Positions 10,680 to 32,031 of a stretch of 32,813 bases of DNA are shown in pieces. The translations under genes and the position numbers were made by a program. The stretch is from Candidatus Wolfebacteria bacterium (GTDB taxonomy: Bacteria > Patescibacteriota > Minisyncoccia > Phycocordibacterales > NVSU01): NCBI GenBank assembly GCA_002401345.1, contig NVSU01000013.1:1-32813 (forward strand), in the 5' to 3' direction. Each line of letters begins with the position of its first letter. Position 1 is the stretch's first letter. The notes beneath the pieces were generated by a model that did not search any database, had not been told where the DNA came from, and saw only the letters and a program-made list of their open reading frames with translations.

Positions 10680-10739
10680 CTCAATTTTGTGACAACCATG
10701 ATTTTAGTTTTACGTACAAAGTCAAAAGCATTTAATCTA

Positions 10740-12518
10740 ATGGAGACAAAAAAGAAAGTCGGTATATGGATCAGAGTTTCAACTGAAGATCAGGCCAAAG
10801 GAGAAAGCCCAGAACATCACGAAAAACGTGCAAGCTATTATGCCAAAGCAAAAGAATGGGAAGTAATTAAGGTATATAATCTTCGAGGTGTAAGCGGAAA
10901 ATCGGTCATGGACCATCCAGAAACTAAAAGGATGTTAGCTGACGTGCAAAATAAGCGCATTACAGGGCTTATCTTCTCAAAATTAGCCCGTCTTACCAGA
11001 AACCTAAAAGAACTCTTAGATTTCTCGGAAATATTCCAAGAGCATAATGCAAGTATGATCTCTCTAGGAGAATCAATCGACACGTCAACCCCTGCGGGAA
11101 GACTCTTTTATGCAATGATAGCAGCAATGGCTCAGTGGGAACGCGAAGAAATTGCTGGGAGAGTGGCCGCCTCAGTTCCCATTCGGGCAAAGCTTGGCAA
11201 ACCATTGGGAGGTGCAGCACCATTTGGATACCGTTGGCTGACAAACGGTGACGGGAAAGCAACAAAACTTGCTATAGATGAGCATGAAGCCCCAATTCGC
11301 AAATTTATTTTCGAACTTTTCTCAAAGCATAAGCGCAAGAAAACCGTAGCTGGAATGCTTACTAAAAAAGGATATCGAACCCGTAATGGGTCTAAGTTCT
11401 CGGATACCACTATTGACCGATTGTTAACTGACCCTATTGCCAAAGGCACAAGACGGGTGAATTATACAAAGAGCCTAGGGGTAAACAAAAAGTGGGAGAT
11501 CAAACCAGAATCAGATTGGGTATATAATGATGTTCCCCCTATTGTTTCAGATGATCTTTGGAACGCATGCAACACTATAATAGACGAACAGAGAAAGAAG
11601 AATAAGAGGAAACCACGCGGAGCAAAGAGATTGTTTGCAGGTCTTGTTTATTGTCATTGCGGAACTAAAATGTATGTATCCTCATATATTCCAAAAGGAC
11701 TATCTCCTAACTATAAATGTGAAAAGTGCAAAAACAAAATAGCACTGGATGATTTAGAGGAAATCTATTACGTTGAACTCCAAACCTTCTTAATCAACGG
11801 AGGACATATAGAAGAATACCTCAAAAAAGCTGATTCACTTGTGTATGATAAAGCTGAACTACTGAGTTCTCATACAAACGAGAAAGAGAAACTGGAGAAA
11901 GAAATGGATCGTCTTGTTAAGCTCCATTCTGAAGGAGAACTACCAACGAAAGGGTTTAACAAACATTACAATCCTTTATTTGAACAAGCTGAACAAATAG
12001 AACTGCAGATACCAGAAATACAGGCTGAGATTGATTTTCTTAAAATTGAATATCTGTCAGGAGATCAAGTATTGAAAGAGGCACATACAATCTATGATCG
12101 TTGGCCTAAACTAGAGCTACATGAGAAGCAACTCATTACTGAAGACCTTACTGAGAAGATCACTATTGGATCGGATGAGATCCAATTCGAATTCAATTAT
12201 ACGCCTGTGCCACGTTCTTCTAATAAAACCCTTACAAAAGAGCAACACAACAACATGGATGCGTTGCCCTTTTGTAAAATCACACTGAATACCCTGAAAT
12301 CTCCACCCCGTTCACTCTTATACCCCATTGAACTAAACACCCTAGGCGATCACATTCGTAAACGTAGATTGGAATTAGGATTATTGCAAAGAGATGTGGC
12401 CAAGATAATGGGTGTTTGTGAGGACACCATTACGGGTTGGGAAACAGGAAGAAGCAATCCTTCTAAAAGACTCATAGGAAGTATAATCAAATTTCTGAAT
12501 TACAACCCATTTGATTAA
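10740..12518 (+). CDS. Large serine recombinase with C-terminal XRE-type HTH domain
   Basis: Resolvase N-terminus 'VGIWIRVSTEDQAKGESPEHH', 'FSKLARLTRNLKELLDFSE', 'DTSTPAGRLFYAMIAAMAQWEREEIAGRV', recombinase domain, 'YCHCGTKM...YKCEKC' zinc ribbon, coiled coil, then 'LGDHIRKRRLELGLLQRDVAKIMGVCEDTITGWETGRSNP' HTH. The ATG at 10740 is preferred over the upstream GTG at 10689. Confidence 0.93.
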   Translation: METKKKVGIWIRVSTEDQAKGESPEHHEKRASYYAKAKEWEVIKVYNLRGVSGKSVMDHPETKRMLADVQNKRITGLIFSKLARLTRNLKELLDFSEIFQEHNASMISLGESIDTSTPAGRLFYAMIAAMAQWEREEIAGRVAASVPIRAKLGKPLGGAAPFGYRWLTNGDGKATKLAIDEHEAPIRKFIFELFSKHKRKKTVAGMLTKKGYRTRNGSKFSDTTIDRLLTDPIAKGTRRVNYTKSLGVNKKWEIKPESDWVYNDVPPIVSDDLWNACNTIIDEQRKKNKRKPRGAKRLFAGLVYCHCGTKMYVSSYIPKGLSPNYKCEKCKNKIALDDLEEIYYVELQTFLINGGHIEEYLKKADSLVYDKAELLSSHTNEKEKLEKEMDRLVKLHSEGELPTKGFNKHYNPLFEQAEQIELQIPEIQAEIDFLKIEYLSGDQVLKEAHTIYDRWPKLELHEKQLITEDLTEKITIGSDEIQFEFNYTPVPRSSNKTLTKEQHNNMDALPFCKITLNTLKSPPRSLLYPIELNTLGDHIRKRRLELGLLQRDVAKIMGVCEDTITGWETGRSNPSKRLIGSIIKFLNYNPFD

Positions 12519-13082: not shown

Positions 13083-13733
13083 CTAAAACTCAAATAAAAA
13101 GTGTTTTAGTTCAATGCTATCATGTTTGGATATATACAGATCTTCGAAGCCTGTGCTATCAGAGCACATCGCTAATACTTCTGCCTTTCTACCGTCCTTT
13201 TCCAATAATTTATTAATCCCATCAACGCATTTTTTTTTGGTTCCATATAAAACATAACCAGCTAAACAGCCCCTTGGATATCTCTCCGTAGTGAAATTTT
13301 CAATCCCGGTATCTATATATCTTCTTTTTAAATAAGAAGCAGAGATAATAGTTCCATTCGACTTTTTCCAATCTGAACTACATAAGTTTTTCGCTTCAAC
13401 GTAATATTCATGTTTATTTGAAGGACTGGTAAAGCTCCCTAACCAAAAATCAATCCTTGGTTGTCTCCTTGGATCGTCCTTTGTTTTAGGGATTGGCAAA
13501 CCGTCATTTTCCGGTTCCACCTGGGTTTTGATAAAGACACATTTCTCCTTTGTCGTTTTACTTTTTCTCATGAAAGTCGCTAAATAATTTGTGAAAGAAT
13601 CTTCAATCCAGTCTCGGTTATATTTGGCATCCTTAATCGCCTCTTGATATCCTTCTACCAAAATGGAAGTACAAATGAATTCAAAACTCCCAACAAAACT
13701 CTGCACAATGTCTGTACTCAAACCACCACTCAT
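13083..13733 (-). CDS. Putative PD-(D/E)XK restriction endonuclease component
   Basis: 'PRIDFWLGSFTSPSNKHEYYVEAKNL' gives a D...ExK motif. Overlaps the upstream MTase stop by 4 bp. Confidence 0.6.
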   Translation of the reverse strand: MSGGLSTDIVQSFVGSFEFICTSILVEGYQEAIKDAKYNRDWIEDSFTNYLATFMRKSKTTKEKCVFIKTQVEPENDGLPIPKTKDDPRRQPRIDFWLGSFTSPSNKHEYYVEAKNLCSSDWKKSNGTIISASYLKRRYIDTGIENFTTERYPRGCLAGYVLYGTKKKCVDGINKLLEKDGRKAEVLAMCSDSTGFEDLYISKHDSIELKHFLFEF

Positions 13734-16700
13734 TTATTGAATACCATTATTTCATTAATAACTGAGTTAGCATCATCCATTCCTTGAGAACGAGTCCAAT
13801 ATCTATTCTGATTGGGCTTCACAATGAATATGGTATCACCATCATAAAACCTGATCTGCTTGCGGACGAAGATATTTTGAGAGTACTTTTCCAAAGTATG
13901 TTCGTTGATTTTATTTAGATGGCTTTCTATCTCTACAATCGAATCCATAACAATTGGAGCCTTCAAATCTGATTCGGGGACGAAGTGAAACGCGACCACT
14001 GTCAAGGGGAAATGGTGAGGTGAAACATAAACCATTGCGTTAACTTTTAACGTCCCAGAAATTAAAAACTCATTTATTTCAGCACAAACGATTTCTGCAA
14101 AGCCAATTGTTTCAGGGTTCTTTGTACTTATAGGGTTTAGGGCAATGGATTTGGCCCCTTTAAAAAATAATGGTAATGTAAAATCACAAAAGTCTCTGAT
14201 AAGAATGACATCTCGAACTGTTAACTTCAAAGACTGCTGAATTAGCTCACTTAGCTCCGTCTTAATGCTCTTGTCTTGAGCAAAAAATTGATCTCGTTCA
14301 TGTCGGATCGAATCAAACAAATCGCCATATGCTTGAAAGTCCTCTTCAGGTACTTGCGGAAGCCGTTTTACATCTGTGGGTTTGATTTCTTCTCTTTCAA
14401 TTCCAAGTGATGCTGAATGCAGAAATAGAAAATACATGCCAAAATCGGAATTAATTAAACAAGTAATTGCCTTCAAAAGCAATTCGCTTTTATGGTGAAT
14501 CCCATACACCTTGCTGTTAAATGAACATGAATAATCCAGAAAAGAAGCACACACGCGATTCTTGCTTAACCCCTCTTTGATAAGTACATGGGGTCCCTGA
14601 AACGCCTTCATCTTGCCCAGTCTCCTGAACGAATCTATTTCAGGCAAATCATTATACTGATCTAATTTGTAATAGGACAAGTAATGAGAGATTGCGTTAT
14701 CCGTCTTAAGGCTTTTGTTTATTGAGTATGTTTGGGGCTTGTCAGTATAGTAACGAACGATATGTTCTGGCAGAATAAACGGAATATTTCTAAGACTGTT
14801 ATTACGAATTGGTTTTGTAGTGGTACCATCCAAAGTTTGAAAGCCAACACCGTTATTTTCTTCATCAAGCAAATCTTTAATTGGAGAAATTTGCATAAGC
14901 CTATCTATTAATAAATAGTCTGCCATTGTTCCCCACTGAGCAATTTTCCAAATTTTAGTATCCGGTTTATGGCATATTTCTCTTGGAAGGTACTTAATGT
15001 CTGTTGCCTCAATTATTACTCCATCAACAACATTGTGTTTGATAAAAGTTTTAGGAGCCCAGTATTCAATAGTATCTCTATAGTTCCTGGGGGGCGAGTT
15101 CCCATTCTGAAAAAACACAATACTGATAGGAACAACAGCAGATGAAAAGAGATGTCCTCCAAAATCCTTTGGAGCTTTTCTCAAAATTGATAGGTTAAAA
15201 ACTTTCTCGACAAAATTCTCATTGAATAACCACTGTCTAAAATTTTGAGCTTTAGAATGCGAATTAGTTAGAATCTTCGTATTAAACACAAGGCCTGCTC
15301 TGCCATTAGGTTTTAATAAACTTGCCGATTTATGAATAAAAGGTATTACGTATTGTGAACTAAAGTTCCGAGAATGGCAATATGCTTTGATGCTTTCTGA
15401 AAGGCCATTGGCTCCAAATGGAGGATTTCCAACAATAACATCGTATTTGATTTTCTCAAACTCACCATCTAAGGCTATAGTATCACATCTATATAAATTA
15501 TGACCCTGGTTCTCATCTTTTTCTGAGTCAATATCTCGAATCAAATTGGGAAACTTTTCCTCGTTTTTCAACCAAACGTCTCTTGGTGAGAGAAAGTCCA
15601 ATAATGCAAGATACAGGCTGAATGATGCTACTTTGATCGATTTATCGTCAATTTCTACTCCAAATATAGAATCAGTCAAAATCTGCGAAAGAACAGAAAA
15701 CTCTGGTGTTACTCCCGGGTGAGCATTTTTCCAATATTGGACTACTCGTTTATAAGCCTGTGCTAAGAAGATTCCTGATCCGCATGCTGGATCAAGTATT
15801 TTTAACTTGTAGTTCGTTCCTCCATTTGGCAAGACATTATCTAAGACCAACTCAACTAAAGTAGGAGGAGTGTAATACGTCCCTGTTTGTTTCTTACGAA
15901 TCGGATCAAATTCTGCCAAAAACTTTTCATAAATCTCACTGAGTAATTCAATCCTGATAAAACTAAAATCAAATAGTCTCCAATTGAAAAATTTCTGTTG
16001 GGCCAGGTTGATATCTCCGTCTGTCAAACAATGCTTAATTAACGTAAGATGTTCATCCGTTATTTGTGAGCGTTCCTCATCCGATATCGGGAAAACATTT
16101 CCATTAAAATGGACTAGAATTTCATCAAACAACGCATATGTCAAATCTTTGGAATCAAGAATATTTAAAAAATCATTGTCGCCAGTTTTTTTCCAAATTT
16201 CTTGTGGAATTGCCTGCCGATCTTGCAAGTACATAATAAAAATGCAGCGCATAAGCAGGTGATGAACAGCTCTGTGTTCATCAACATCCTCTTTAATTTT
16301 TCTTGCCAATTTTACCAAAGAATTCACCAGATAATGGTCAACTTTAGTTTGCAGTTTTACTTTTTTGGAATAGTCGGTCATCCAGATTGACCCAGAGTCG
16401 ATTGCGATCCTTGAAAAAACATGTTGAAGCCTCTCTAGCTTTGCCGAATCCCTTAAAACGCACTGCTCAATAGTTCGGATCTCTAATTCTTTTGGTAACC
16501 TAACCTCAGCGTCCACTCTATTGAGCAACACAGGGCTTTCATTACAATTGTATATTCTTATCTCTGCTGGAGAAGTAACGTACAAGAAAGTCACCCTGCT
16601 ATTGTTCCATATTTTGCGCTGTAATTCGGCAATTTCCTTTAATGTATCCAGATCAAATCGGGATACTTTTTTGAAGAAGACGGCAGGATAATTTCCAGAG

Positions 16701-16810
16701 TAGTGAACCGCATCAGCTCCTATTTTTTCAATGAGCATCAACCCTTCTGATGGCATCTTCGAAGCTTTAATATCAAACCCAAGTTTTAGTATGAAAAAAT
16801 CGCTGCTCAT
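13730..16810 (-). CDS. N6-adenine DNA methyltransferase (Eco57I / type IIG-like)
   Basis: Motif I 'ILDPACGSGIFLAQAYKRV', 'FGVEIDDKSIKVASFSLYLALLDF', motif IV 'YDVIVGNPPFGANG', with long C-terminal TRD-like region. Confidence 0.88.
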   Translation of the reverse strand: MSSDFFILKLGFDIKASKMPSEGLMLIEKIGADAVHYSGNYPAVFFKKVSRFDLDTLKEIAELQRKIWNNSRVTFLYVTSPAEIRIYNCNESPVLLNRVDAEVRLPKELEIRTIEQCVLRDSAKLERLQHVFSRIAIDSGSIWMTDYSKKVKLQTKVDHYLVNSLVKLARKIKEDVDEHRAVHHLLMRCIFIMYLQDRQAIPQEIWKKTGDNDFLNILDSKDLTYALFDEILVHFNGNVFPISDEERSQITDEHLTLIKHCLTDGDINLAQQKFFNWRLFDFSFIRIELLSEIYEKFLAEFDPIRKKQTGTYYTPPTLVELVLDNVLPNGGTNYKLKILDPACGSGIFLAQAYKRVVQYWKNAHPGVTPEFSVLSQILTDSIFGVEIDDKSIKVASFSLYLALLDFLSPRDVWLKNEEKFPNLIRDIDSEKDENQGHNLYRCDTIALDGEFEKIKYDVIVGNPPFGANGLSESIKAYCHSRNFSSQYVIPFIHKSASLLKPNGRAGLVFNTKILTNSHSKAQNFRQWLFNENFVEKVFNLSILRKAPKDFGGHLFSSAVVPISIVFFQNGNSPPRNYRDTIEYWAPKTFIKHNVVDGVIIEATDIKYLPREICHKPDTKIWKIAQWGTMADYLLIDRLMQISPIKDLLDEENNGVGFQTLDGTTTKPIRNNSLRNIPFILPEHIVRYYTDKPQTYSINKSLKTDNAISHYLSYYKLDQYNDLPEIDSFRRLGKMKAFQGPHVLIKEGLSKNRVCASFLDYSCSFNSKVYGIHHKSELLLKAITCLINSDFGMYFLFLHSASLGIEREEIKPTDVKRLPQVPEEDFQAYGDLFDSIRHERDQFFAQDKSIKTELSELIQQSLKLTVRDVILIRDFCDFTLPLFFKGAKSIALNPISTKNPETIGFAEIVCAEINEFLISGTLKVNAMVYVSPHHFPLTVVAFHFVPESDLKAPIVMDSIVEIESHLNKINEHTLEKYSQNIFVRKQIRFYDGDTIFIVKPNQNRYWTRSQGMDDANSVINEIMVFNK

Positions 16811-18039: not shown

Positions 18040-18317
18040 TCCGAGCACTATCCGGTTGCATTGCCCTTTAGTAAAATCATACTGAATACCCCAAAATCTC
18101 CACCTCCTTCCCTCTTATATCTTAATGAACTAAAGTCCTTGGGCGACCATATCCGCCAGCATAGACCAGACCTTGTATTCTTTTACAGAAAGATGTTGCA
18201 CTTACAATTGGTACATGTGAGGACACAATTACAGGTTGGGAGAATGGAAGAAGTAATCCTGCTAATAAATTTATTGGGGGTATCACTAAATTTTTGGGGT
18301 ATAATCCGCTTCCATGA
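18040..18317 (+). pseudogene. Frameshifted remnant of serine-recombinase C-terminal XRE-type HTH
   Basis: 'ALPFSKIILNTPKSPPPSLLYLNELKSLGDHIRQHRPDLV' then, one frame over, 'QKDVALTIGTCEDTITGWENGRSNPANKFIGGITKFLGYNPLP*'. This aligns to the recombinase C-terminus (ALPFCKITLNTLKSPPRSLLYPIELNTLGDHIRKRRLELGLLQRDVAKIMGVCEDTITGWETGRSNPSKRLIGSIIKFLNYNPFD*). Confidence 0.85.
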
Positions 18318-18943: not shown

Positions 18944-20203
18944 ATGGAAGAATTATTGCCTCAAATCTTAAACGATACAATAAGCTTACAAGATACCTTC
19001 CCTCTTTTAATAGACAGGGAAGTTGATTATATCAATGAAGCAAAAGAGTTGTTTGATGGTGAATTTTATAGCTACTCCCTGCTAGCAATTTGGAATGCAG
19101 CAGTGAACAATCTGAAAAGGAAGGTTGAAGCATATGGTGTTGAATTGTGGTCATCTGTTGTTAAGGACGAACCTGGACGGAAAAAACATGATGGCGATGG
19201 TGATACCATTTCCGAAAGGTGGAGTAATGTTGATGACCTCACTTTAATTGCAGGTGCTACCAAACTTGGCTTGCTAAATCCAAAAGCAGGGAAAACATTG
19301 GAGATGATTAACTGGATGCGTAATCATGCTTCCCCCGCACATGACTCCGATCACCGAGTAGAACGAGAAGATGCAATAGGTCTTATATTGCTTCTTCAGA
19401 AAAATCTGTTTGAACAACCAATTCCAGATCCAGGACATTCTGTATCCTCCTTATTTGACCCGATAAAAAACAAGGTCCACACTCCAGATGAATTGAATGT
19501 ACTGAAGGACCAAATCAATTCTTTCAGGCCACAAGACATACGAATTTCATTTGGCTTTTTTACTGATTTATTGACTGCTGGAGAGGAACCTTCGACTACA
19601 AATGTTATTGCACTATTCCCAACAGTTTGGGAGAAATCGAATGACGATTTAAGAAAAGCTCTCGCAATAAAGTATCATACATTTATCATTGATCCAGATA
19701 CTGATGGCAGCTTAGATGAAGGTGCTAAAACTAGAGTCTTTGAAATGTTAGTTACATTAGACGCTGTACACTATATTCCAGATGGAACTAGGGCGAGACT
19801 TTTCAGAAGAGCGGCCCAACAACTGGCAATTGCAAAAGACACTAGCTATGGCTGGAAAGATGAAGAAGCCGCCTCCAGAAGTTTATTACAATTAGGAACA
19901 TCTATTCCAGAAGTGGCATTTATAGAAGTCTTTCAAGAGATACTTTCTGTTTATTGCGGTAATTATTGGGGTCGTTCAGATAGTCACTTTAGTCTTAAGG
20001 ATTTTATTGAGGTGCTTAACACCGACCGGTTAAGGATCGTGATGAAGATATTCAGAGAAATTGACAGAGTTCAGGCAGAATTATTTTCACCAAAGGCTAA
20101 AAACTTTGCTGTACAACTTCTTACGTCATTTGAAGTTAGGCTGACATTAGAAGCACATAAAAAAGAATTAACCGACACCTTAGAAATTATCAAGGAATTA
20201 TAG
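18944..20203 (+). CDS. HEPN-like domain protein of unknown function
   Basis: N-terminal 'EAKELFDGEFYSYSLLAIWNAAVNNLKRK' helix and 'MINWMRNHASPAHD' R-x6-H motif (codons 19319-19342) resemble HEPN; long helical C-terminus. Confidence 0.65.
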   Translation: MEELLPQILNDTISLQDTFPLLIDREVDYINEAKELFDGEFYSYSLLAIWNAAVNNLKRKVEAYGVELWSSVVKDEPGRKKHDGDGDTISERWSNVDDLTLIAGATKLGLLNPKAGKTLEMINWMRNHASPAHDSDHRVEREDAIGLILLLQKNLFEQPIPDPGHSVSSLFDPIKNKVHTPDELNVLKDQINSFRPQDIRISFGFFTDLLTAGEEPSTTNVIALFPTVWEKSNDDLRKALAIKYHTFIIDPDTDGSLDEGAKTRVFEMLVTLDAVHYIPDGTRARLFRRAAQQLAIAKDTSYGWKDEEAASRSLLQLGTSIPEVAFIEVFQEILSVYCGNYWGRSDSHFSLKDFIEVLNTDRLRIVMKIFREIDRVQAELFSPKAKNFAVQLLTSFEVRLTLEAHKKELTDTLEIIKEL

Positions 20204-20269: not shown

Positions 20270-23200
20270 TCATTTGTTCCTCTCGGATTTTTTCTTTCTC
20301 TTCATCGCATCCAGAATTACCTTAGACACTGAATCTCTCTTTTTATCCATTTCCGATTCAGGAATGGCATTGTATTTAGATTTTACCCGATATCCCTTTG
20401 TTCGTTTCTCAATTGAGGCAATCTGAGCAATTTGCTGATCTAAGAAAAAAGCCAATTGCCCCTTGGTAAAAACTTTGACCATTGATTGCACCGAGGGAGT
20501 AAGATTGGAATAAAGAAATTCCTTTAAGCTATTGGCGTGATGTTCTCCTGAAGAACAAACAACAACTATCTTATAACCAGCAGTTAGGCACTTTTCAATA
20601 TTTTTAATCTCATACTCTTTAGTGGTCACAGATATTTCACACGCAATCCTTATTTCACCAAGTTCCAGTGCAACATCAACTCTCCCTTTTCCGTGCGGTA
20701 CTTCTTGCTCAATAGTTGCTTTAAATCCTCTGGATTCTGCTAGCTTTTTCACATATGTCTGAAGATAACGATGTTCTGTTATACCCTTTCTCTCAGATTC
20801 CACCTTTTGTATCTCATCTCTCTCAATACTTGGCTTGTCATCAGCCACAGGCTGTTCCACTATAGCTTGAGGTTCTTCCTTTTCAGAAATAGGATGAATA
20901 TGTGAGACCAAATTATCTGCTATCCCTTTTTCAATATTTTCACGATTCTCACCATACTTGTCTCTAGATAATCGTATGATATTAGCTTTCCTTTCCGAAG
21001 CTATATTCTTATCTACTTTATCAGGGAGAACAGTGACCAGATTAAAATCACTATCTCTTTTATCCACTCGTACAATAGCCTCACCAATATTCAGATTTTG
21101 CAAGTCCGATGAGCTGAAGTACGAAAATCCATCTTCCAATTTCTTTGCATCAAAATCTCCTAGTCTGAAACAAATTCGTGTTCCTGCATTGGATATAATG
21201 GAATTTGCTACTTCACTATCCTGTTTCTGGATTTGGTCAAGATTCTGATGTGCTGCAACAAGTCCAAAATGGTATTTTCTTGCACCAGATAATATGTCTT
21301 CCATAGACTTTGTAATAAAATTCTGGAATTCGTCCACGTATAGGAAATAGTTGTTTCTAGATGCATCACTCTTCGCCTGACGGGCCATTACAGCCTGATG
21401 GAGTTTTGACACAATGAGCGTTCCCAAAAGGTAGCTATTCTCAGACCCTATAAGACCTTGTGAGAGTTTGACCAAAAGAATTTTACCTCCGTCCAGAATA
21501 GAATTAAAATCCAAACCCTCCTTTTGCGCCATCATATTGCGGATTAGTTTGGGACGTAAGAAGGTGTTAAGTCGGGTGAGTAGCGGTGCAATGGAATGGC
21601 TTTTCAAATGAGGAAATTCATTTTCCCAATAGTAGACTACGCTAGGATCGCGTACCGTTTTCATAAACGTATCACGGAATTTCTGCTCAACTAAAAATCT
21701 TCTTAAATCAAGTAGAGTACCCCCCTTGTCACTTTCTAAGAAGGCAGAAATTGCATTTGAAAGAACTGAGGTCATTACATCACCCCAACTCGTGGCAATC
21801 CTTTGGAATAGTGCAATCAAATCCGAGGAAAGCACAATCTTTTCAATCTCTGAATGCGCTGTTAATAGATTAAATCCTACTGGGTAGTCATAATCTGAAG
21901 GATCAACAAGTACAACATCTTTATGTCTGTGATCTGGTATATGTGATAGTACGTTATCTATAAGGTCACCGTGAGGATCTAACACAGCTATTCCATTACC
22001 CTTTTCAATATCCTGTATAATTTGGTTCAACAGGAATACTGATTTCCCCATGCCTGTTGCACCTATAACATGAATGTGTCGAAGCTTTTGTTCAGCACTC
22101 AGTCCAACTTCCGTTTCTTTGGAATGATGCAAATTTACACCTAAAACGTATTCATTGTTACATACAGCATCTGGCGCTTTTTTAGTTTTACCCAAATCAC
22201 GTCCTAATTTTTCTGACACTACGGAAGCAGACGGAAGATGAACCAATGAGACGAGTTCCTTACTGTTCAGGATCATTCCTAGTCGATGTGAGTTTCTGTG
22301 CAATACCCCGAATAAGTGTGCATCATATGGGTACTTGTCATTAGAGAGTGCGATTAACTCATTTGAACTAGGTCGAGAGAGTAGTTTTAATACGCCGGCA
22401 ACACTTTGCACTATTTCCAATGACCGCTCGTTAGACTCACTCTGTGCAAGCACACGTATTACCACACTAAATAGAGGTGAAGCTACTTTCTCTCTAGTCA
22501 AAGAGAGGATTTCAGGGGCATCTGAAAAGAAACAACCTCCAGAATCATCCTGAACTGCATGGAGCATTTCTTTTGCCCACGGATTTTTAACGCCTTGAAA
22601 TAAGACCTGTATTGCTCCCATTTCACCACTCTCTATCCCCTCTAGTGCACCCGCGATACTTGAAAGAAGATCAGGATTAAATCCCCTCACAGATTGCAAT
22701 GGACACATAAACTCATCGGATAAACCAAAATCCACAATGAGCATTTCTTGAAATCCATCATATTCCTGATACTTCTTTATTAAATACCCCTGCTCGATGG
22801 TAAGAACAACTTCTGGATAAAATGCTTTTACTTGATTCAAGACATATGACTCATCAGGCTGCCTGCACGTAATCTGAATAACCGTCTTGTCATGAGTACT
22901 AATCACCTCATAACAAATTGGCAAACGACAATTAGAAAGCATCACCAGAAAACTTTCAGCAGTATCAATTGAAGTATCTTGACCCTTTGGTACATTTATT
23001 TGAATTTCACTTAATGTATACATGTCCTCAGAAGGAAATGCTGATCTATCTATACTTATATCGCTTAAGTCGGTGTCCTCATTTTGCACCTGAGTCGATT
23101 TACTTCTAAACATATCTGCAATGGAACTTAATAGTGTAGGTTCTCTTCCATCGTCTATAGCTAGATCAGGAGAAACAGGAATCTGTAATAGTGGAGCAAA

Positions 23201-23305
23201 AGGAGGTTCAAGTTGGACAGGTTGACCGTAGACGTACCACCCACGACCAAAGTGTTCCCACTTATAGAACTGAGACGTAAGATTTTCACTTGATGAGGGG
23301 ATCAT
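20270..23305 (-). CDS. TraG/VirD4-HerA-like P-loop ATPase with C-terminal nuclease-fold-like domain
   Basis: Walker A 'GATGMGKSVFL', 'GIAVLDPHGDLIDNVL', Walker B 'YFLYVDEFQNFI', 'GLVAAHQNLDQI'. Tail 'RGFKATIEQEVPHGKGRVDVALELGEIRIACEISVTT'. Confidence 0.85.
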   Translation of the reverse strand: MIPSSSENLTSQFYKWEHFGRGWYVYGQPVQLEPPFAPLLQIPVSPDLAIDDGREPTLLSSIADMFRSKSTQVQNEDTDLSDISIDRSAFPSEDMYTLSEIQINVPKGQDTSIDTAESFLVMLSNCRLPICYEVISTHDKTVIQITCRQPDESYVLNQVKAFYPEVVLTIEQGYLIKKYQEYDGFQEMLIVDFGLSDEFMCPLQSVRGFNPDLLSSIAGALEGIESGEMGAIQVLFQGVKNPWAKEMLHAVQDDSGGCFFSDAPEILSLTREKVASPLFSVVIRVLAQSESNERSLEIVQSVAGVLKLLSRPSSNELIALSNDKYPYDAHLFGVLHRNSHRLGMILNSKELVSLVHLPSASVVSEKLGRDLGKTKKAPDAVCNNEYVLGVNLHHSKETEVGLSAEQKLRHIHVIGATGMGKSVFLLNQIIQDIEKGNGIAVLDPHGDLIDNVLSHIPDHRHKDVVLVDPSDYDYPVGFNLLTAHSEIEKIVLSSDLIALFQRIATSWGDVMTSVLSNAISAFLESDKGGTLLDLRRFLVEQKFRDTFMKTVRDPSVVYYWENEFPHLKSHSIAPLLTRLNTFLRPKLIRNMMAQKEGLDFNSILDGGKILLVKLSQGLIGSENSYLLGTLIVSKLHQAVMARQAKSDASRNNYFLYVDEFQNFITKSMEDILSGARKYHFGLVAAHQNLDQIQKQDSEVANSIISNAGTRICFRLGDFDAKKLEDGFSYFSSSDLQNLNIGEAIVRVDKRDSDFNLVTVLPDKVDKNIASERKANIIRLSRDKYGENRENIEKGIADNLVSHIHPISEKEEPQAIVEQPVADDKPSIERDEIQKVESERKGITEHRYLQTYVKKLAESRGFKATIEQEVPHGKGRVDVALELGEIRIACEISVTTKEYEIKNIEKCLTAGYKIVVVCSSGEHHANSLKEFLYSNLTPSVQSMVKVFTKGQLAFFLDQQIAQIASIEKRTKGYRVKSKYNAIPESEMDKKRDSVSKVILDAMKRKKKSERNK

Positions 23306-23347
23306 ATATTACTTTTAGAAGAACTTTCCATTCATTAAATTCTATGC

Positions 23348-24334
23348 TTATTGCTGTTTCGCATTTTTCAACTCGGTAAATATAGAAGACAAATCTAGCA
23401 CCTGTTTCCTGTTCATTGCCTGTGGTGCCATTGTGATCAATTTTTCTATATACCTTTCAGCGTATCCCCCATAAAAGTTTATCTCCTCCTTCACTTGTCC
23501 AACTGTTTTATCTCCAAGAAATAACCCTGCAATACTATACAATGGGTAAAGAATAACTTTTTTGAATATCAATGCGATTACATTTGCAATGAACACCGGA
23601 ATACCATAAACTATCGCCACTATTGGATTACAACCAGGTTTACCGTATGTCTTCCTATGAATCCTATTACCAAAATTTACAAGCCATAAAGTAACCGTGA
23701 GTACTTTGTCTGGCAACCATATCCTTGAGAGTGGCAAAAACATTAAAAAACATGCGATTGTGTGTATGCACCAAATAGCAAGTAGGCCATTTGTCCAAAG
23801 AGGAATTTCAATATACCTACCAATAATAACCAACCATATAAGTATTACAGTAGCGGAAGCCCATGCAACAACAGATTGTATTGGTATATCATCTTTCAAT
23901 TCCTCCATCAATACTTCCCGAAGTATAAAGCCTTTAGATACCACAAACTCTTTGGTGTGATACTTATATTTAGTTGATTTTACAAAAGTCCATACCTCCT
24001 GAATCATCTCCTGAACCATTTCGATAACCTCATATGACAACCCTAGTTCCTCTTCTCCTGGGGCATACTCCTTCTCTCTGATCGGTTGTTCATATACAGT
24101 CTCCTGATCCCTCAAATATGACTCTAAGAATGCAATACAAGGCTCTATTGCTATAAAATTCTCTTGAAACCTTTGGTACAAGTTCGGATCAGTTTCCCTT
24201 TTATGATGAACTAAGTCAGGGTGCCATCGGCTCTTTATTTTCCTTTCGACTACCTTTAAGTCTTCAGCTTTTAGCTTTTTAATATCGGTTATTACAAGAA
24301 GCCTAATTGCTTGATCAAGAGTAATCTCATCCAT
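23348..24334 (-). CDS. Membrane protein with degenerate N-terminal J-domain
   Basis: 'VVERKIKSRWHPDLVHHKRETDPNLYQRFQENFIAIEPCIAFL' contains an HPD tripeptide in J-domain context. Several hydrophobic segments (VVAWASATVILIWLVIIG, GLLAIWCIHTIACFLMFLPL, PIVAIVYGIPVFIANVIALIF). Confidence 0.65.
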   Translation of the reverse strand: MDEITLDQAIRLLVITDIKKLKAEDLKVVERKIKSRWHPDLVHHKRETDPNLYQRFQENFIAIEPCIAFLESYLRDQETVYEQPIREKEYAPGEEELGLSYEVIEMVQEMIQEVWTFVKSTKYKYHTKEFVVSKGFILREVLMEELKDDIPIQSVVAWASATVILIWLVIIGRYIEIPLWTNGLLAIWCIHTIACFLMFLPLSRIWLPDKVLTVTLWLVNFGNRIHRKTYGKPGCNPIVAIVYGIPVFIANVIALIFKKVILYPLYSIAGLFLGDKTVGQVKEEINFYGGYAERYIEKLITMAPQAMNRKQVLDLSSIFTELKNAKQQ

Positions 24335-24340
24335 ATTTCC

Positions 24341-24940
24341 CTATGGTCTATAGAATTCTTTCATTATTGGTTTGGCAGCACCTTCTGAGAACCCCTTAAA
24401 TCCTTGAGTAGAGGTAATAGACTCTATGGCATTGAGCACACAAGTATGAATCATTCCCTGAAACATCTTGTGGGTATCTTCTTGATACCAGGTCTTACTT
24501 TTCATATTATTCTTCAGCACTGGTCCGATGAACGGAAAGCAGTATAACAGTCGTTGCCAAAAGCTGATCTCCCTATTAAACCACCAGGAAACAAAAAATC
24601 CTGTTCCGAACAAGCCAGAAGAAATCTTGAAAACATATGGTCCGCGAGATACGCATAAGTACTCTCTTCTAGACGAAAAAAATCCCCCTTCCTTGTATAA
24701 CTTTCTGGAGATTCTTATGCCGGGAATATTGCAGATAATGACATTACGCTCTACTGATTTATAAAATGCTTGTGTAGAGCACTGTATGTTTTGAATATTC
24801 TGCGACCAATTTGAAATTTCTATTTCTGATACAGTAAGTGTCTCTCCAATATAGGAACCAATAGACCAACCTTGCTTTATTCCAGATATAAAGGGCTGCA
24901 ATTCGTTTTTTGACATCAAAAAAAGTGAAGGTTGCCTCAA
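24341..24940 (-). CDS. Hypothetical protein, possibly membrane-associated
   Basis: 199-aa ORF (an internal start at MSKNEL is possible); ends 6 bp before the J-domain gene. Confidence 0.6.
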   Translation of the reverse strand: MRQPSLFLMSKNELQPFISGIKQGWSIGSYIGETLTVSEIEISNWSQNIQNIQCSTQAFYKSVERNVIICNIPGIRISRKLYKEGGFFSSRREYLCVSRGPYVFKISSGLFGTGFFVSWWFNREISFWQRLLYCFPFIGPVLKNNMKSKTWYQEDTHKMFQGMIHTCVLNAIESITSTQGFKGFSEGAAKPIMKEFYRP

Positions 24941-25014
24941 AATTTAAACCTCGTTTGCATAAAAAACCTACTACCAATAACATACGAATAAATGACAAGT
25001 ATAAATTTGAAGGT

Positions 25015-25650
25015 TTAAGAAATAATATTTGCCAATATCTCCCTTACTTGTATTTTGTTGTTCACCGTAGTATTTATCTTGAACTTCTTAATCAACTTCA
25101 GACTGTCATAATACTCATTATAAAGATCATTCTTGTATACCGCTAATTTCTTGTTGGTTAAGTGAATCGGAATATTGATTGCTTTCCTAGACAAATTCTT
25201 GTCTGTATTATATCGCAATCTCTCTATAATAGTATTAGGTTCTGCCGTCACTAGAATTAAGATGACATCTCTTTCAGTTAACTCTTTCTCCATCTCAAGG
25301 GCATAGTCGAAGCGATCTAAATTGAACAACAGTTTACTGTATACAACTTCAGTGAGAAACAGACGCTCAATTATCATATTGTCGTGCTTAATACTATCAA
25401 CAACCCCAAAAATCTCATTCGTTCTCATCCTTAAATAATTTATTGAACTACATATAATATCAGAATCTAAATTCTCAAAATGTTCCGGATCATAAAGCAA
25501 TTTAATCTCTGGAAATTGCCTAAGTAAATGTTGGTGGAAATAATCATGCAGTTCTATAACCATTGCCCCTGGAAGAAAAAATTTTATCAAGGATGAAACC
25601 GTACCCTTCCCGCAATAATTGGCACCCTCAATTAAGACACGCTTTACCAT
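25015..25650 (-). CDS. P-loop nucleoside/nucleotide kinase-like protein (dTMP kinase-like)
   Basis: N-terminal 'MVKRVLIEGANYCGKGTVSSLIKFFL' Walker A, 'DNMIIERLFLTEVVYSKL', 'VILILVTAEPNTIIERL'. Confidence 0.7.
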   Translation of the reverse strand: MVKRVLIEGANYCGKGTVSSLIKFFLPGAMVIELHDYFHQHLLRQFPEIKLLYDPEHFENLDSDIICSSINYLRMRTNEIFGVVDSIKHDNMIIERLFLTEVVYSKLLFNLDRFDYALEMEKELTERDVILILVTAEPNTIIERLRYNTDKNLSRKAINIPIHLTNKKLAVYKNDLYNEYYDSLKLIKKFKINTTVNNKIQVREILANIIS

Positions 25651-25661
25651 AATTACTTGAA

Positions 25662-26483
25662 CTATTCGTAAACGTATGGAGTCAAAAAGTCCTTTTCATA
25701 AAAGACCTTTTCAACAAAACTATTTACGTTTATCTCTTGTAAAGGGTCATTAATACTATCCTGTTTAGTGTGATTTTCAACTCGAAGGAGTAGTCCCCAT
25801 TTATTTTCTTTTAATAACCCCTTATGTTTCAAATCCTTAAACTCATCCTTTGATTTAAACAGTGAACTCAGATAAAGCAAACAAGCGCTAGTAGAAACAG
25901 TTGTTACACCACAGCAAATTAACACATGTTGTTCAGTCCCACTGGTATTTCGTATTGATCCATTAAAAATTACGCCATAACATACTTTCACAAGTTGACC
26001 GGCTTCTCTTTCTATTTCAAAAACTCTTTCTTTTCCTTGTGATTGGGAAGGGTACACAAGTATCCCTTTCGGATCTTTGATAAATTTGATTGGGGCACCA
26101 ATTTTGCCAAGCAAGTGCCTTGTCCCAGGATTCCATTTTGGACCGCTAATGCTGAGAACATTAGGATGCAAACTTATGTTGGCGCCAAGTGTGCCTCCAT
26201 CCTGTATGAGAATTTTTTCAGAGTCAAATAGGGTATTAATCGTCTGAAAACCAACCAAGAGCGCATATACATCTCCTTGTTGAACAATAACTTTATTGTC
26301 CTTTTCACCGGGAGGTATAGAACCATATGCATATATGATCTCCTTGTTAGTATTAAAAGATAAGGCCCTTGCAAAAGCTCTCCATCCGACAAAATATTTA
26401 ACACATCGCTCAATCTGCTTTCCAATAACAGCTCCAATAATAAGAACAATTATACCGGCAACTATATTCAAAATCAGGTCCAT
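25662..26483 (-). CDS. N-terminally membrane-anchored protein of unknown function, possibly Rossmann-like
   Basis: TM helix 'LILNIVAGIIVLIIGAVIG', then 'VYALLVGFQTINTLF..', 'NVLSISGPKWNPGTRHLLGKIG', 'EQHVLICCGVTTVSTSACLLYLSSLF'. Confidence 0.6.
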   Translation of the reverse strand: MDLILNIVAGIIVLIIGAVIGKQIERCVKYFVGWRAFARALSFNTNKEIIYAYGSIPPGEKDNKVIVQQGDVYALLVGFQTINTLFDSEKILIQDGGTLGANISLHPNVLSISGPKWNPGTRHLLGKIGAPIKFIKDPKGILVYPSQSQGKERVFEIEREAGQLVKVCYGVIFNGSIRNTSGTEQHVLICCGVTTVSTSACLLYLSSLFKSKDEFKDLKHKGLLKENKWGLLLRVENHTKQDSINDPLQEINVNSFVEKVFYEKDFLTPYVYE

Positions 26484-26511
26484 TCTAATAGCGTATTTAA
26501 GTGTTTATTTA

Positions 26512-27207
26512 TCAGCCTCTGGATTCAATCTGATTAATTTTTTTTACAATTACGTTTGGGGGTATATCTTTAGTAACAACTGCCCCAGCACAGATATATG
26601 AATTATCTCCTATATTGATTCCACCTATGATAGTTGAATTAAAAGCTATTATAACGTTGTTACCAATTTTCGGGGAACTATCCAATGGGTTTTCCTCAGC
26701 AACTCCATGCTTTAAATATTTATGTACTAATGAACCATAAACACTGGAATAATCACCGATAACACAGTCATTGCATACAAACCCTCCAATACGCGAGTGT
26801 GAACCTATACTAACTCTTTTGAATATTTGTGCACGATAGTGAATTTTCGTATTATTTCCAATGCAAGCACCTCGTCCAATATATGATTGCTCCCCGCAGA
26901 TAACATTGTTTCCCAGTGAAGCACCTGAATAAATAATAGTTCCAGCTTGAATGTGACAGTGACTACCGACTGTAGTCACTATTTTTTGGTCTGTAGATGT
27001 AGTGTGTTTTTCTGGTATCAGGATGGAACGAAGGTCATCTCTCAATAATTTACCAATTATAGAACTGGCTTCTATTATCGTATTACTTCCAACTTCGACA
27101 GTTGATGGGAAACTTGCTGACTTATGGATGACTGCTCCATTTTCTAGTTGTATATAAGCCTGCTTATCGAAGTTAAATTGTTTCATTAGATGCTCTTTAA
27201 GATCCAA
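26512..27207 (-). CDS. Left-handed beta-helix (hexapeptide repeat) acyltransferase
   Basis: Tandem hexapeptides: 'IGRGACIGNNTKIHYRAQIFKRVSIGSHSRIGGFVCNDCVIG', 'IIGGINIGDNSYICAGAVVTKDIPPNVIV'. Confidence 0.88.
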   Translation of the reverse strand: MDLKEHLMKQFNFDKQAYIQLENGAVIHKSASFPSTVEVGSNTIIEASSIIGKLLRDDLRSILIPEKHTTSTDQKIVTTVGSHCHIQAGTIIYSGASLGNNVICGEQSYIGRGACIGNNTKIHYRAQIFKRVSIGSHSRIGGFVCNDCVIGDYSSVYGSLVHKYLKHGVAEENPLDSSPKIGNNVIIAFNSTIIGGINIGDNSYICAGAVVTKDIPPNVIVKKINQIESRG

Positions 27208-27974
27208 CTTACCGCTTTATCGTGTACGTATTTCTCAATAGTCGGGTCTTTAAATGCGTGTCCTCCACTAACTACAATATCAAGCTCTACGTTTGGCTCA
27301 ATTGTGCAATAATCTTGTGCAAATTTTACTGACACTTTATCATCGCTATCACCATGAAACACTAAAGATGGAGCTTGCAGCTTAGAAATACCTAAATATG
27401 GAAACATTAATGCCATTTCTAAATACAGCGATACTGATCCAACAAATTCATTTAAGATTGTAGTCCCCCCTTCATCTAATAATTGTAGCGCTTTTTCATC
27501 AGAAATTGCCCCTTCCCATTCAAGTATCGAATTAGTAAAAGTACCTTGATAGTCCAGTACGGGATTAAGAAAGACAAAAAGCTCAATCTCTTGTTTAATC
27601 CTTAATTGACGCTCTAGGAGAGCAACACTACCACCAAAACTAGATCCTATTATTACTATCCGTTTACCTCTTCGTTTAATCCATTTTAAAACGGTTATGT
27701 AGTCATACAGAGCACCCTGAACGTCAAAATCCTTACTTGGGATGTCACTTTCTCCGTGTCCACGAAAATCAAATCGAAAAACCTCTAATCCAACAGTCAG
27801 CAGCCTTCCAGCAAATCGGTCAAATCGACCTTTTTCATGTTTATCAGTAAAAATACCATGCAACAGTAACACAATGCAATTTTCCAAAGAATTACCCGCT
27901 GGAACTTCATAAATCGCTTTAATATCGTGTCCATCAGGTGTACGAATATTGGGGTATGAAATTTGATCATTCAT
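27186..27974 (-). CDS. Alpha/beta hydrolase
   Basis: 'IVLLLHGIFTDKHEKGRFDRFAGRLLTVGLEVFRFDFRGHGESD', nucleophile elbow 'VIIGSSFGGSVALL', 'SLVFHGDSDDKVSV', 'VVSGGHAF'. Overlaps the next gene by 22 bp. Confidence 0.9.
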   Translation of the reverse strand: MNDQISYPNIRTPDGHDIKAIYEVPAGNSLENCIVLLLHGIFTDKHEKGRFDRFAGRLLTVGLEVFRFDFRGHGESDIPSKDFDVQGALYDYITVLKWIKRRGKRIVIIGSSFGGSVALLERQLRIKQEIELFVFLNPVLDYQGTFTNSILEWEGAISDEKALQLLDEGGTTILNEFVGSVSLYLEMALMFPYLGISKLQAPSLVFHGDSDDKVSVKFAQDYCTIEPNVELDIVVSGGHAFKDPTIEKYVHDKAVSWILKSI

Positions 27975-28172: not shown

Positions 28173-28197
28173 TCATAACCCTATCATAGGGATATGA
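28173..28197. promoter_or_regulatory. Inverted repeat overlapping the start codon of the 28194 ATPase (operator-like)
   Basis: tcataaccctat-c-atagggatatga, 11 of 12 positions complementary. Confidence 0.5.
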
Positions 28198-29375
28198 AGC
28201 AACTCCCTGACGAAAATCGCATCTCATATTTTGCCCGAACCAACTTCCGCAACAAGGGGAATAAATTTGGCATCAAAAAAGGAGACAGAAAATCTCATAT
28301 CTACACCATAGGTAAAACATCCACCGGCAAGTCTACCTTCCTGGCCAATCTCATGAACTCAGACCTTCAAAATGGTGAAGGTTTTTGCCTTATAGACCCC
28401 CACGGTGATCTTGCTCTGAAGATATTGCGAATGATTCCTGAGAAGAGGAAGAGCGATGTAATTTTATTCAATCCTGGACAAAGTGATCATTCAATTAGCT
28501 TGAACATATTACAAGTATCTAGCAACGAAGATAAATACCAAATCGCCTCTAGTTTTATAAGCATCCTCAAAAAAATATACGGGGATTCTTGGGGTCCTAG
28601 ACTAGAATACACCTTGCGAAACACACTTTTAACTATTCTGGAATTCCCTGAAATGGGAACGTTGCTTTGGATTCCGAAACTCTTAACCAATCAAGCATTC
28701 CGAACAGAAATTGTCAGCAATATTCATGATGAGTATTTGCGAGTATTTTGGGTTGATGAGTTTATGAAATACACTCCACGATTCCGACAGGAAGTTATTT
28801 CACCGATATTAAATAAGATTGGACAGTTCTTATCCAACCCCAACATTAGAAGAATCTTTCAAAAGCCAAGGAGCAATTTCAATTTCAGAGAGATTATGGA
28901 TAATGGAAAAATTCTAATTGCAAATTTGTCCAAAGGGAAAATAGGAGAAGACAATGCGGCACTATTAGGAGCTATGCTTGTTTCAAAAATTGAATCAGCA
29001 GCATATTCTCGGCAGAACATTCCAGAAGAAAAACGAAGGTCCTTTTATCTATACGCGGATGAATTTCAATCGTATACTACATCTAGTTTTGCCTCCATTT
29101 TATCCGAGGCCAGAAAATTCAACCTCTCCCTTATTCTCGCACACCAACATTTACATCAGTTAGATCCCCTGACCAGAGGGGCTATTTTTGGTAATGTCGG
29201 CACCATCATATCTTTTAGAGTAGGTGCAGAAGATGCGGAATATTTAGCTGAGGAATTCTATCCGAAATTCAATAAAGGTGACTTCCTAGATTTACCCAAT
29301 TACCACATGTATTTACGAATGATGATAAATGGAGAGATCAGCAAGGGATTTAGCGCAAAAGTGCTGAACATATAA
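28194..29375 (+). CDS. Compact TraG/VirD4-HerA-like P-loop ATPase
   Basis: 'IYTIGKTSTGKSTFLANLM', 'GFCLIDPHGDLALKIL', 'SFYLYADEFQSYT', 'LSLILAHQHLHQL'. Confidence 0.85.
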   Translation: MKQLPDENRISYFARTNFRNKGNKFGIKKGDRKSHIYTIGKTSTGKSTFLANLMNSDLQNGEGFCLIDPHGDLALKILRMIPEKRKSDVILFNPGQSDHSISLNILQVSSNEDKYQIASSFISILKKIYGDSWGPRLEYTLRNTLLTILEFPEMGTLLWIPKLLTNQAFRTEIVSNIHDEYLRVFWVDEFMKYTPRFRQEVISPILNKIGQFLSNPNIRRIFQKPRSNFNFREIMDNGKILIANLSKGKIGEDNAALLGAMLVSKIESAAYSRQNIPEEKRRSFYLYADEFQSYTTSSFASILSEARKFNLSLILAHQHLHQLDPLTRGAIFGNVGTIISFRVGAEDAEYLAEEFYPKFNKGDFLDLPNYHMYLRMMINGEISKGFSAKVLNI

Positions 29376-29498
29376 CCATATATCCCCTTTTCTGATCTGG
29401 CGTTTTTACCCGTCTTACTCCATACTTTAGTTTCATATACAGTTCCAATAGATGATTTATAGTCGTAGTAATCATCTTGTAAAGAATTAAGAACTGGT

Positions 29499-29792
29499 AT
29501 GAAACGAGAGAAGAGTAACAAATCAAAACCAGAATATATTCCCAGAAACAATCTGTGGGTGATGCGCAAAAGGCAACATATATCACAAAAGCAACTAGCG
29601 AATATTTTAGGCCATAAGACCACATCACTCATATATCGTTGGGAAAAAGGGAGTATTACCCCTGACTTGAACAACGCCCTTAAACTCTCCATTGCTCTTT
29701 CCTCCCCTCTAGAGCACCTCTTTCACGAGCACTATACATTTCTTAAATCTCAGATTGTACCGCGCAAGGCAGATCAATCCACAGATAAGTGA
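29499..29792 (+). CDS. XRE-family HTH transcriptional regulator
   Basis: 'NNLWVMRKRQHISQKQLANILGHKTTSLIYRWEKGSITPDLNNALKLSIAL'. Confidence 0.85.
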   Translation: MKREKSNKSKPEYIPRNNLWVMRKRQHISQKQLANILGHKTTSLIYRWEKGSITPDLNNALKLSIALSSPLEHLFHEHYTFLKSQIVPRKADQSTDK

Positions 29793-29846
29793 GGTGAACA
29801 ACCCTTATCTGACAATTTATTAGCAAATCATAATCGTACGACTGTC

Positions 29847-29872
29847 GCTATTATTATATAGATAATAATAGC
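29847..29872. promoter_or_regulatory. Perfect 11-bp inverted repeat upstream of the RuvC/SSB gene group
   Basis: gctattattat-atag-ataataatagc. Confidence 0.5.
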
Positions 29873-29894
29873 GTTTGACGTACACGACACCCCC

Positions 29895-30152
29895 ATGAAT
29901 AAATTTGATGCCCCATTGGGCATTTCTAAAGAAAAATTACTTGCAAATCAGTTAGCCATTAGATTAAAGGATATTGAAAACGTTAATCTCTATGAAAATT
30001 TCTGTCAAGTATATACCTCACAATCACTCACAGAAACACTTGGCAAAGTAGAGGCGTTTCCCGATGACAAGATTCGCAAGACTAAGGGCGCATTATTTAC
30101 CTACTTGATCAAACGATATGGCAAAAAGCAAAGTCAACGTGAAATCCGGTAA
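29895..30152 (+). CDS. Hypothetical protein
   Basis: 85-aa ORF, overlaps the RuvC-like ORF by 35 bp in the same direction. Confidence 0.55.
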   Translation: MNKFDAPLGISKEKLLANQLAIRLKDIENVNLYENFCQVYTSQSLTETLGKVEAFPDDKIRKTKGALFTYLIKRYGKKQSQREIR

Positions 30153-30735
30153 CAGTACCCAATCATCATTCCCAACACCATATGTAAGCAGAATACTAGC
30201 AATTGATCCAGGAAGCAGATATATGGGTGTAGTTGTTTTAGAAAATGGTGCTCCTGTGTATTATGGAGTGAAATCACTCACAAAAGCTAGACTGTACAGG
30301 AGAAAAGTTAGAACCGCTCATGATGATGGTCACTTACTACTGAAAAGAGTTGCTGCCCCTGCGAGGCTGCCTCTAAAGCAAGTTCACAAGATTATTCAAA
30401 AACTTATTGATACGTTTAATCCAAAGTGCCTTGTAATAGAGAAACCTTTTGACAGATGGCGCAAGCAGTCAAAATTATTGAACAAGCTCGTCAAGGAGAT
30501 CACTAGGACTGTAAGGCAAAACAACGTGGAGTTAATCGAGCTCTCCCCAGAGGAAGTCAGATTAACCATTACCAAGAATGAGCACGCAACCAAGCAAGAT
30601 ATAGTAAACGCTCTTTCTTCAATATCCGATCTCAGCGTGCTTCTTGAGTTTGATAGGATTAATGACCGGTACTGGCATCACATGTTCGATGCACTTGCAC
30701 TGGCTGTAGCCGTAGAGATGAAAGCACAGCTCTAA
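30118..30735 (+). CDS. RuvC-like (RNase H-fold) nuclease
   Basis: 'RILAIDPGSRYMGVVVLENG', 'PKCLVIEKPF', 'RYWHHMFDALALAVAVE' match acidic motifs of the RuvC/RNase H fold. Confidence 0.82.
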   Translation: MAKSKVNVKSGNSTQSSFPTPYVSRILAIDPGSRYMGVVVLENGAPVYYGVKSLTKARLYRRKVRTAHDDGHLLLKRVAAPARLPLKQVHKIIQKLIDTFNPKCLVIEKPFDRWRKQSKLLNKLVKEITRTVRQNNVELIELSPEEVRLTITKNEHATKQDIVNALSSISDLSVLLEFDRINDRYWHHMFDALALAVAVEMKAQL

Positions 30736-31671: not shown

Positions 31672-32031
31672 ATGACAACAATGAAAAACACAGTGCAATT
31701 AATTGGTAATCTTGGAGCTGACCCAGAATTAAAAGAAGTAGGCGATAAAAAAACATCGGTTGCAAAAATGACATTAGCAACAACGGACACCTACAAGAAA
31801 GCGTCTGGCGAAAAGGCTACAGAGACCCAATGGCACAATTTAGTTGCCTGGGGAAAGACTGCAGAAATAGCTGGAAAGTACCTTCAAAAAGGTAATCGCA
31901 TAGCTATTACAGGAAGACTTGTGAATAAGTCCTATGAAGACAAGAAAGGTATCAAACGATATGTCACAGAAATCGTTGTTTCAGACTTGTTAATGCTTGG
32001 TGATAAACCACCTGATAACAAGAAGAAATAA
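31672..32031 (+). CDS. ssb: Single-stranded DNA-binding protein
   Basis: 'MKNTVQLIGNLGADPELKEVGDKKTSVAKMTLATTD...TQWHNLVAWGKTAEIAGKYLQKGNRIAITGRL'. Confidence 0.93.
   Translation: MTTMKNTVQLIGNLGADPELKEVGDKKTSVAKMTLATTDTYKKASGEKATETQWHNLVAWGKTAEIAGKYLQKGNRIAITGRLVNKSYEDKKGIKRYVTEIVVSDLLMLGDKPPDNKKK

Follow-up and report, generated by a model that had tools for sequence, protein, structure and literature searches.

What do seven neighboring genes that are read in one direction, and together match no familiar system, have in common? The question is raised by positions 20270-27974 of contig NVSU01000013.1, a 32,813-nucleotide stretch of DNA (the window, at its full length) assigned to a Candidatus Wolfebacteria bacterium, where genes for an alpha/beta hydrolase, a hexapeptide-repeat acyltransferase, a transmembrane (TM)-anchored protein, a kinase-like P-loop protein, a small membrane protein (M1), a membrane protein with a J-like motif, and a large VirD4/VirB4/HerA-type ATPase (designated ATP) follow one another on the minus strand (Table 1). 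The initial annotation singled out this run and suggested that it could be a new defense or DNA-transfer system, or else two adjacent operons. Comparison with related loci points to a mobile island that extends beyond the run and that appears to contain, in addition to M1 and ATP, a large serine recombinase (SR) whose gene is split upon integration.

The conserved pair in the seven-gene run

The physical description of the run holds, with seven open reading frames (ORFs) in a single direction separated, in the order of transcription, by -22, +28, +11, +74, +6, and +42 bp. A search of the minus strand within 20270-27974 detected no terminator-like site, weak evidence that makes a single transcript possible. 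Three of the gene names originally given are borne out by Pfam (alpha/beta hydrolase, E-value 6e-13; hexapeptide transferase, 9e-24; TrwB/TraG/HerA ATPase, 1e-10), whereas those of the J-domain protein (HPD within KSRWHPDLVHH) and the kinase (GANYCGKGT) stand at the level of motifs, neither protein having a supporting match in Pfam, NCBIfam, or PADLOC.

Relatives of ATP were gathered by searching genome contigs with a two-sequence profile, which yielded 80 loci (the same contig search with the single ATP sequence returned zero matches), and the genes neighboring ATP at these loci were called as greedy six-frame ORFs and then clustered. In most of the 80 loci the match to ATP spans all ~1000 residues, with identities chiefly of 38-51%; the loci come from Bacteroidota, Verrucomicrobiota, Planctomycetota, and further groups. 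The clustering identified M1 as the sole strong partner of ATP, with a member of the M1 family (~190 aa; motif FDICAAPFGTGFFVSWW) directly upstream of ATP in 67 of the 71 loci with room for it. The recombinase lies directly downstream of ATP, on the same strand and at a distance of <=700 bp, in 28 of 70 loci, and 11 additional loci have a detached helix-turn-helix (HTH) half of SR in convergent orientation downstream of ATP. None of the other five genes in the run has a BLAST match within +/-10 kb of the ~80 ATP relatives, and the window copy is the only one with the J-like gene between M1 and ATP. Based on these comparisons, the conserved core of the run is M1 plus ATP, and the remaining five genes look like passenger cargo.

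That all seven genes form one new functional system would agree with their shared direction, their short gaps, and the lack of a minus-strand terminator-like site, but it is highly improbable in view of the five genes that recur with ATP at none of the loci examined and of the absence of the J-like protein from the other 146 genomes searched in the order of the bin (147 in total). The run as a unit thus failed the test of co-occurrence, and an association beyond chance was retained for M1 and ATP only. This pairing had been overlooked in the initial annotation, as had the PD-(D/E)XK-like domain of ATP and two plus-strand regions assigned here to the same element, 28194-30735 and 10689-12518.

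The relatives of the bin are Paceibacteria. Among the products of the window contig (C14) are an S1/P1 nuclease, GldM-like domains, and a sorting domain of the type IX secretion system (T9SS). In tetranucleotide profile C14 resembles contigs C15 and C19 more closely than it does most of the bin, and both of these contigs (loci L112 and L116, respectively) hold genes closely paralogous to its GldM-like 246-aa and 150-aa genes. A Patescibacteria host for C14 was rejected on this gene content and composition, and C14, C15, and C19 are probably Bacteroidota contigs mis-binned in a Patescibacteria metagenome-assembled genome, so that tests of co-occurrence within the bin's own order are weak tests. 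The same evidence bears on whether ATP could instead be chromosomal DNA-handling machinery of Patescibacteria. Related ATPases (~920 and/or ~610 aa, typically 30-39% identical) are present in all 41 genomes of the order that were searched (G001-G040 among them), but the full-length relatives with a nuclease domain are mostly from Bacteroidota and Verrucomicrobiota, and together with the T9SS and GldM-like genes of the contig, whose paralogues also occur on C15 and C19, this leaves such a role with hardly any probability. The ~920-aa and ~610-aa chromosomal homologues in Paceibacteria (G001-G040) may themselves belong to a possibly related two-ATPase machine. Genes upstream of chromosomal ATPases in Patescibacteria/Kerfeldbacteria were considered as homologues of M1 and rejected, as they look unrelated by eye.

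A crossover point within the recombinase gene

Elements with recognizable boundaries demonstrate how the recombinase gene is divided. In Mesoflavibacter zeaxanthinifaciens (G163), a 47.9-kb insertion splits dprA between positions 156739 and ~204626, and the dprA halves correspond to codons 1-176 and 169-367 of the 367-aa reference (tblastn with dprA of relatives). The Mesoflavibacter SR adjoins the truncated dprA and ends where dprA begins, while at the far end of the element a 145-aa frame is a match for the HTH-bearing C-terminus of full-length SR relatives. The gene ssb is split by ~30-kb and ~43-kb insertions in Zhouia and Aequorivita (G161 and G174), where the far ends consist of the N-half of ssb, then the HTH half of SR, then a complete element-borne ssb; the same end structure is found in G165 (contig C115) and G159. 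The bounded elements, 30-48 kb in length, each interrupt dprA or ssb and have SR and ATP together at the same end.

An alignment of the SRs found beside ATP shows sequence shared up to one point (NGQH in relatives, KEQHNN in the window) and divergence thereafter. The SRs of the window, L035, L049, L052, and L066 (609-649 aa) extend beyond it with either one or two HTH domains, those of L051, L053, L062, and L065 run into ssb, that of L039 reads in frame into comM/yifB as a fusion, that of L060 runs into dprA, and, by reading of the translations, those of L056 and L034 run into radC and comM, respectively; several of these target identifications are based on short reading frames judged by eye. 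The presence of SR halves at opposite ends, combined with the single point of divergence, indicates that the attachment site (attP) is located inside the SR gene and that integration removes the HTH. As shown by these sequence comparisons, the crossover point falls inside SR, and integration leaves the catalytic part at one end of the element and the HTH part at the other.

Two further observations concern the targets. A complete ssb follows the SR HTH half, beside the split host ssb, in L153 (941-1282), L155 (899-1231), L157 (735-1076), and L158 (930-1265), an arrangement that looks like rescue of the target gene and may repair the damage caused by insertion. In Verrucomicrobiaceae (L077, L079-L082, and L091), SR runs into a common cupin-like gene downstream, which is likely a fixed target site.

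The 3' end of SR in the window (12257-12508) is repeated with ~73% identity at 18054-18307, so that the two copies flank a type IIG-like restriction system. The second copy is 2 kb downstream of ATP and convergent with it, a layout matching that of L047 and L075, and position 18054 is likely one end of the ATP element, with the restriction module accreted at a second att copy.

The small ATPase that accompanies this core (atp, ~400-440 aa) occurs on the same contig as ATP, from adjacent to ~80 kb distant, in about half of 27 genomes, a count that is a lower bound because PF12696 missed some small ATPases. The order atp-M1-ATP is found in several loci, extending in L034 to the minimal order atp-M1-ATP-SR, and in several elements an Xre-type regulator, sometimes a protein of 85-114 aa, and a RuvC-like resolvase are located near atp. 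Since the window holds the same block of atp, Xre, p85 (an 85-aa protein), and RuvC at 28194-30735, the run is best regarded as M1-ATP plus cargo within a larger element that includes SR; the atp of L023, located immediately upstream of M1, shares 51% identity with that of the window. An island with a backbone of SR, Xre regulator, p85, RuvC-like resolvase, atp, M1, and ATP is considered probable, and the model as a whole is held with fairly good confidence.

DNA transfer or defense

ATP contains a Walker A motif (GATGMGKS, residues 415-422) and a Walker B DE pair (658-659), exceeds the Pfam cut-offs for TrwB_AAD_bind and TraG-D_C, and has a predicted structure (mean pLDDT, the predicted local distance difference test, of 85) whose fold matches include VirB4, TrwB, and HerA. 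By these features it qualifies as a coupling ATPase of the type IV secretion system (T4SS) kind (VirD4/TrwB). FtsK_SpoIIIE is not matched by ATP, which matches TrwB/TraG/HerA, and atp has just a sub-cut-off FtsK match. The C-terminus of ATP in model m85809ba3caf9 comprises a helix (828-858), three strands (862-868, 875-882, and 885-892), a helix (897-908), and a strand (913-918), which is the alpha-beta-beta-beta-alpha-beta core order of PD-(D/E)XK nucleases, and the conserved residues of this predicted domain are E866, D877 (invariant), E890 (nearly invariant), and K905 (invariant). The N-terminal helix of M1 is likely membrane-spanning. Foldseek gave just weak START/SRPBCC-like matches for M1 (best E-value 2e-3, TM-score ~0.3), so that no function was assigned to it, and comparison with solved structures returned chance matches of the G-protein-coupled receptor type only.

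Among 27 whole genomes with ATP, relaxase family PF03432 is absent from 21 and the VirB4-type family PF19044 from 18, Mesoflavibacter (G163) being among those that lack each (channel genes were not searched one by one). A route of transfer can be proposed in which SR would excise the element and the re-formed circle would restore a full-length SR, whose regained HTH could regulate the enzyme. M1 would anchor a hexamer of ATP at the membrane, the hexamer would export element DNA from the cell, taking over the role of a relaxase and a T4SS, and the nuclease domain or RuvC would make or resolve the DNA substrate. The odds are about even that the M1-ATP pair is a membrane-bound DNA translocase responsible for moving the island. 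The complete proposal is more tentative and is given somewhat less than an even chance: a new class of islands without relaxase or T4SS, which combine a membrane-anchored HerA/VirD4-type ATPase-nuclease with a second ATPase and RuvC, carry an attP-bearing SR that is switched by loss of its HTH, insert into dprA, comM, and ssb, and ferry defense genes.

Several points weigh against the island model and the proposed route of transfer. Excision, transfer, and expression of the element are predictions from sequence. The relaxase search covered PF03432 and left out MOBF, MOBQ, MOBV, and MOBT, and since the loci were chosen via ATP itself, the presence of ATP in every element is by construction. In the nuclease-like domain, S, C, or N replaces the usual K at +2 after the second acid, making nuclease activity uncertain because this lysine is missing, although a possible substitute is the invariant K905 of the following helix. 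Additionally, the window element is unbounded on the right, its right end lying beyond the contig, and a full-length SR combined with a second attachment-site copy points to a tandem or an accreted layout.

Alternatively, in what is the main rival reading, M1 and ATP could be a defense module carried by the island as cargo, in which a membrane-anchored HerA-type translocase-nuclease degrades phage or plasmid DNA. HerA-nuclease pairs are known defense modules, DUF4297-HerA (8zir, E-value 8e-11) is among the fold matches of ATP, a weak PADLOC match to mad8 was obtained (E-value 2e-17), and numerous defense genes occur in the flanks. However, VirB4 and TrwB rank above DUF4297-HerA among the fold matches, the match to the PADLOC HerA model (E-value 3e-6) extends over just 58 profile positions, and the NCBIfam model HerA_antiphage gives 14 bits against a cut-off of 800. 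The location of M1-ATP at the recombinase end, in an element that also encodes RuvC and another ATPase, likewise looks like that of backbone rather than swappable cargo, and a defense role for the pair is judged unlikely. Of what was originally suggested for the run, DNA transfer is kept, by inference, for the M1-ATP core and defense for the cargo of sister elements, and neither applies to the seven genes together.

Three other affiliations were rejected. ATP is found at 80% coverage in no plasmid record, and a known plasmid backbone was rejected on that basis; a phage was discarded with one full-length ATP relative among viral contigs and 0 of 10 window proteins matching a phage structural family; and membership in MADS was dismissed after a scan of nine window proteins gave generic mad8 and mad2 matches only.

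Relation to known elements and cargo of the islands

The proposed island shares traits with several known systems and differs from each. Actinomycete integrative and conjugative elements (AICEs) are FtsK/SpoIIIE-type integrative elements in which a single hexameric translocase may replace a whole T4SS (PMC3218068). The likeness lies in an integrative element with a small backbone plus cargo and in transfer by a single translocase, proposed here by analogy; in contrast, ATP is of the VirD4/VirB4/HerA type with a nuclease-like domain rather than FtsK/TraB, the hosts belong to other phyla, and the island, whose transfer is inferred from its genes, has two ATPases plus M1 and RuvC. The suicidal integrases of archaea (e.g., SSV1, pT26-2, and pTN3) also have attP within the integrase gene, which is split upon integration, and have been called exclusive to archaea (PMC8371274). 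The SR gene likewise contains attP and is split when integrated, but it encodes a bacterial serine recombinase, not an archaeal tyrosine recombinase, and loses just the C-terminal HTH while the catalytic part stays intact. HerA-nuclease modules (DUF4297-HerA and HerA-NurA) similarly couple a HerA-family hexameric ATPase to a nuclease, whereas the nuclease-like domain of ATP is fused C-terminally and ATP has a membrane partner and a linkage to a recombinase. The resemblance to MADS consists of the weak mad8 match of ATP and the mad2 match of a nearby methyltransferase; the latter fits type IIG far better (1e-55 versus 2e-24), and the scan of window proteins turned up no further MADS component. 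Finally, islands are known in competence genes, such as AbaR in comM (PMC11472951) and phage A118 in comK (PMC3556126), and share integration into genes of natural transformation, but differ in recombinase layout and backbone, the targets here being dprA, ssb, and comM, with radC and others as further probable targets.

No description of this element, of serine recombinases with an internal attP, or of relaxase-free HerA elements was found in the open-access literature (subscription papers and preprints being outside the scope of the search), and the mobile island with its self-splitting SR is widespread and apparently previously undescribed. If the proposal is true, Bacteroidota, Verrucomicrobiota, and other phyla harbor a widespread family of islands that takes phage defense from species to species by a transfer route that would escape element finders based on relaxases and T4SSs. 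It would also mean that gene-splitting integration extends from archaeal tyrosine recombinases (PMC8371274) to bacterial serine recombinases, and that insertion into dprA and comM is an added case of mobile DNA disabling natural transformation, which has been proposed as one way for such DNA to avoid being removed through homologous recombination (PMC12637031, PMC11472951).

Sister elements carry several kinds of cargo. Among 130 genes located upstream of M1-ATP in sister loci, the commonest recognizable types are tetratricopeptide repeat, ArdC-type, MPTase-PolyVal, ThsB (Thoeris) TIR, DnaG-like primase, RadC, E1-E2, caspase, and reverse transcriptase. Defense genes are thus present in this cargo, with enrichment over background not proved. 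The Mesoflavibacter element carries a dCTP-deaminase defense protein, a PDC-S28 protein, three TIR proteins, and a caspase. In the window, the slot between atp and M1 that is used by sister cargo is filled by the acyltransferase, hydrolase, TM-anchored, and kinase-like genes.

Table 1. Features of the window, with positions, strand, and basis of assignment where given
Feature	Position	Strand	Basis
ATP, 1011-aa VirD4/VirB4/HerA-type ATPase with C-terminal PD-(D/E)XK-like domain	20270..23305	-	
328-aa membrane protein with HPD (J-like) motif; putative cargo or local accessory	23348..24334	-	
M1, 199 aa, one N-terminal TM helix plus small alpha/beta domain	24341..24940	-	
P-loop protein, kinase-like by motif alone; putative cargo	25015..25650	-	
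TM-anchored protein, 273 aa; putative cargo	25662..26483	-	
Hexapeptide-repeat acyltransferase; putative cargo	26512..27207	-	Pfam
Alpha/beta hydrolase; putative cargo	27186..27974	-	Pfam
SR, large serine recombinase, 609 aa, full-length with fused C-terminal Xre HTH; Resolvase and Recombinase domains	10689..12518	+	
Predicted attP crossover inside SR	12236..12257	+	Divergence point of related integrated SRs and start of homology of the second copy
Decayed second copy, attP half and SR HTH end; probable element end (attL-like)	18054..18307	+	
atp, small second TraG/HerA ATPase, 393 aa; putative backbone	28194..29375	+	
Xre-type HTH regulator; putative backbone	29499..29792	+	
p85, 85-aa protein upstream of RuvC; putative backbone	29895..30152	+	
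RuvC-like resolvase, 205 aa; putative backbone	30118..30735	+	
Type IIG-like restriction-modification gene and partner, between att-like copies; putative defense cargo	13083..16810	-	
419-aa ORF matching phrog_27609 (E-value 6e-94), convergent with ATP; putative cargo	18944..20203	+	

The window also contains a complete ssb at 31672-32031, which is located downstream of the RuvC-like block, rather than beside an HTH half, and could be a gene of the element.

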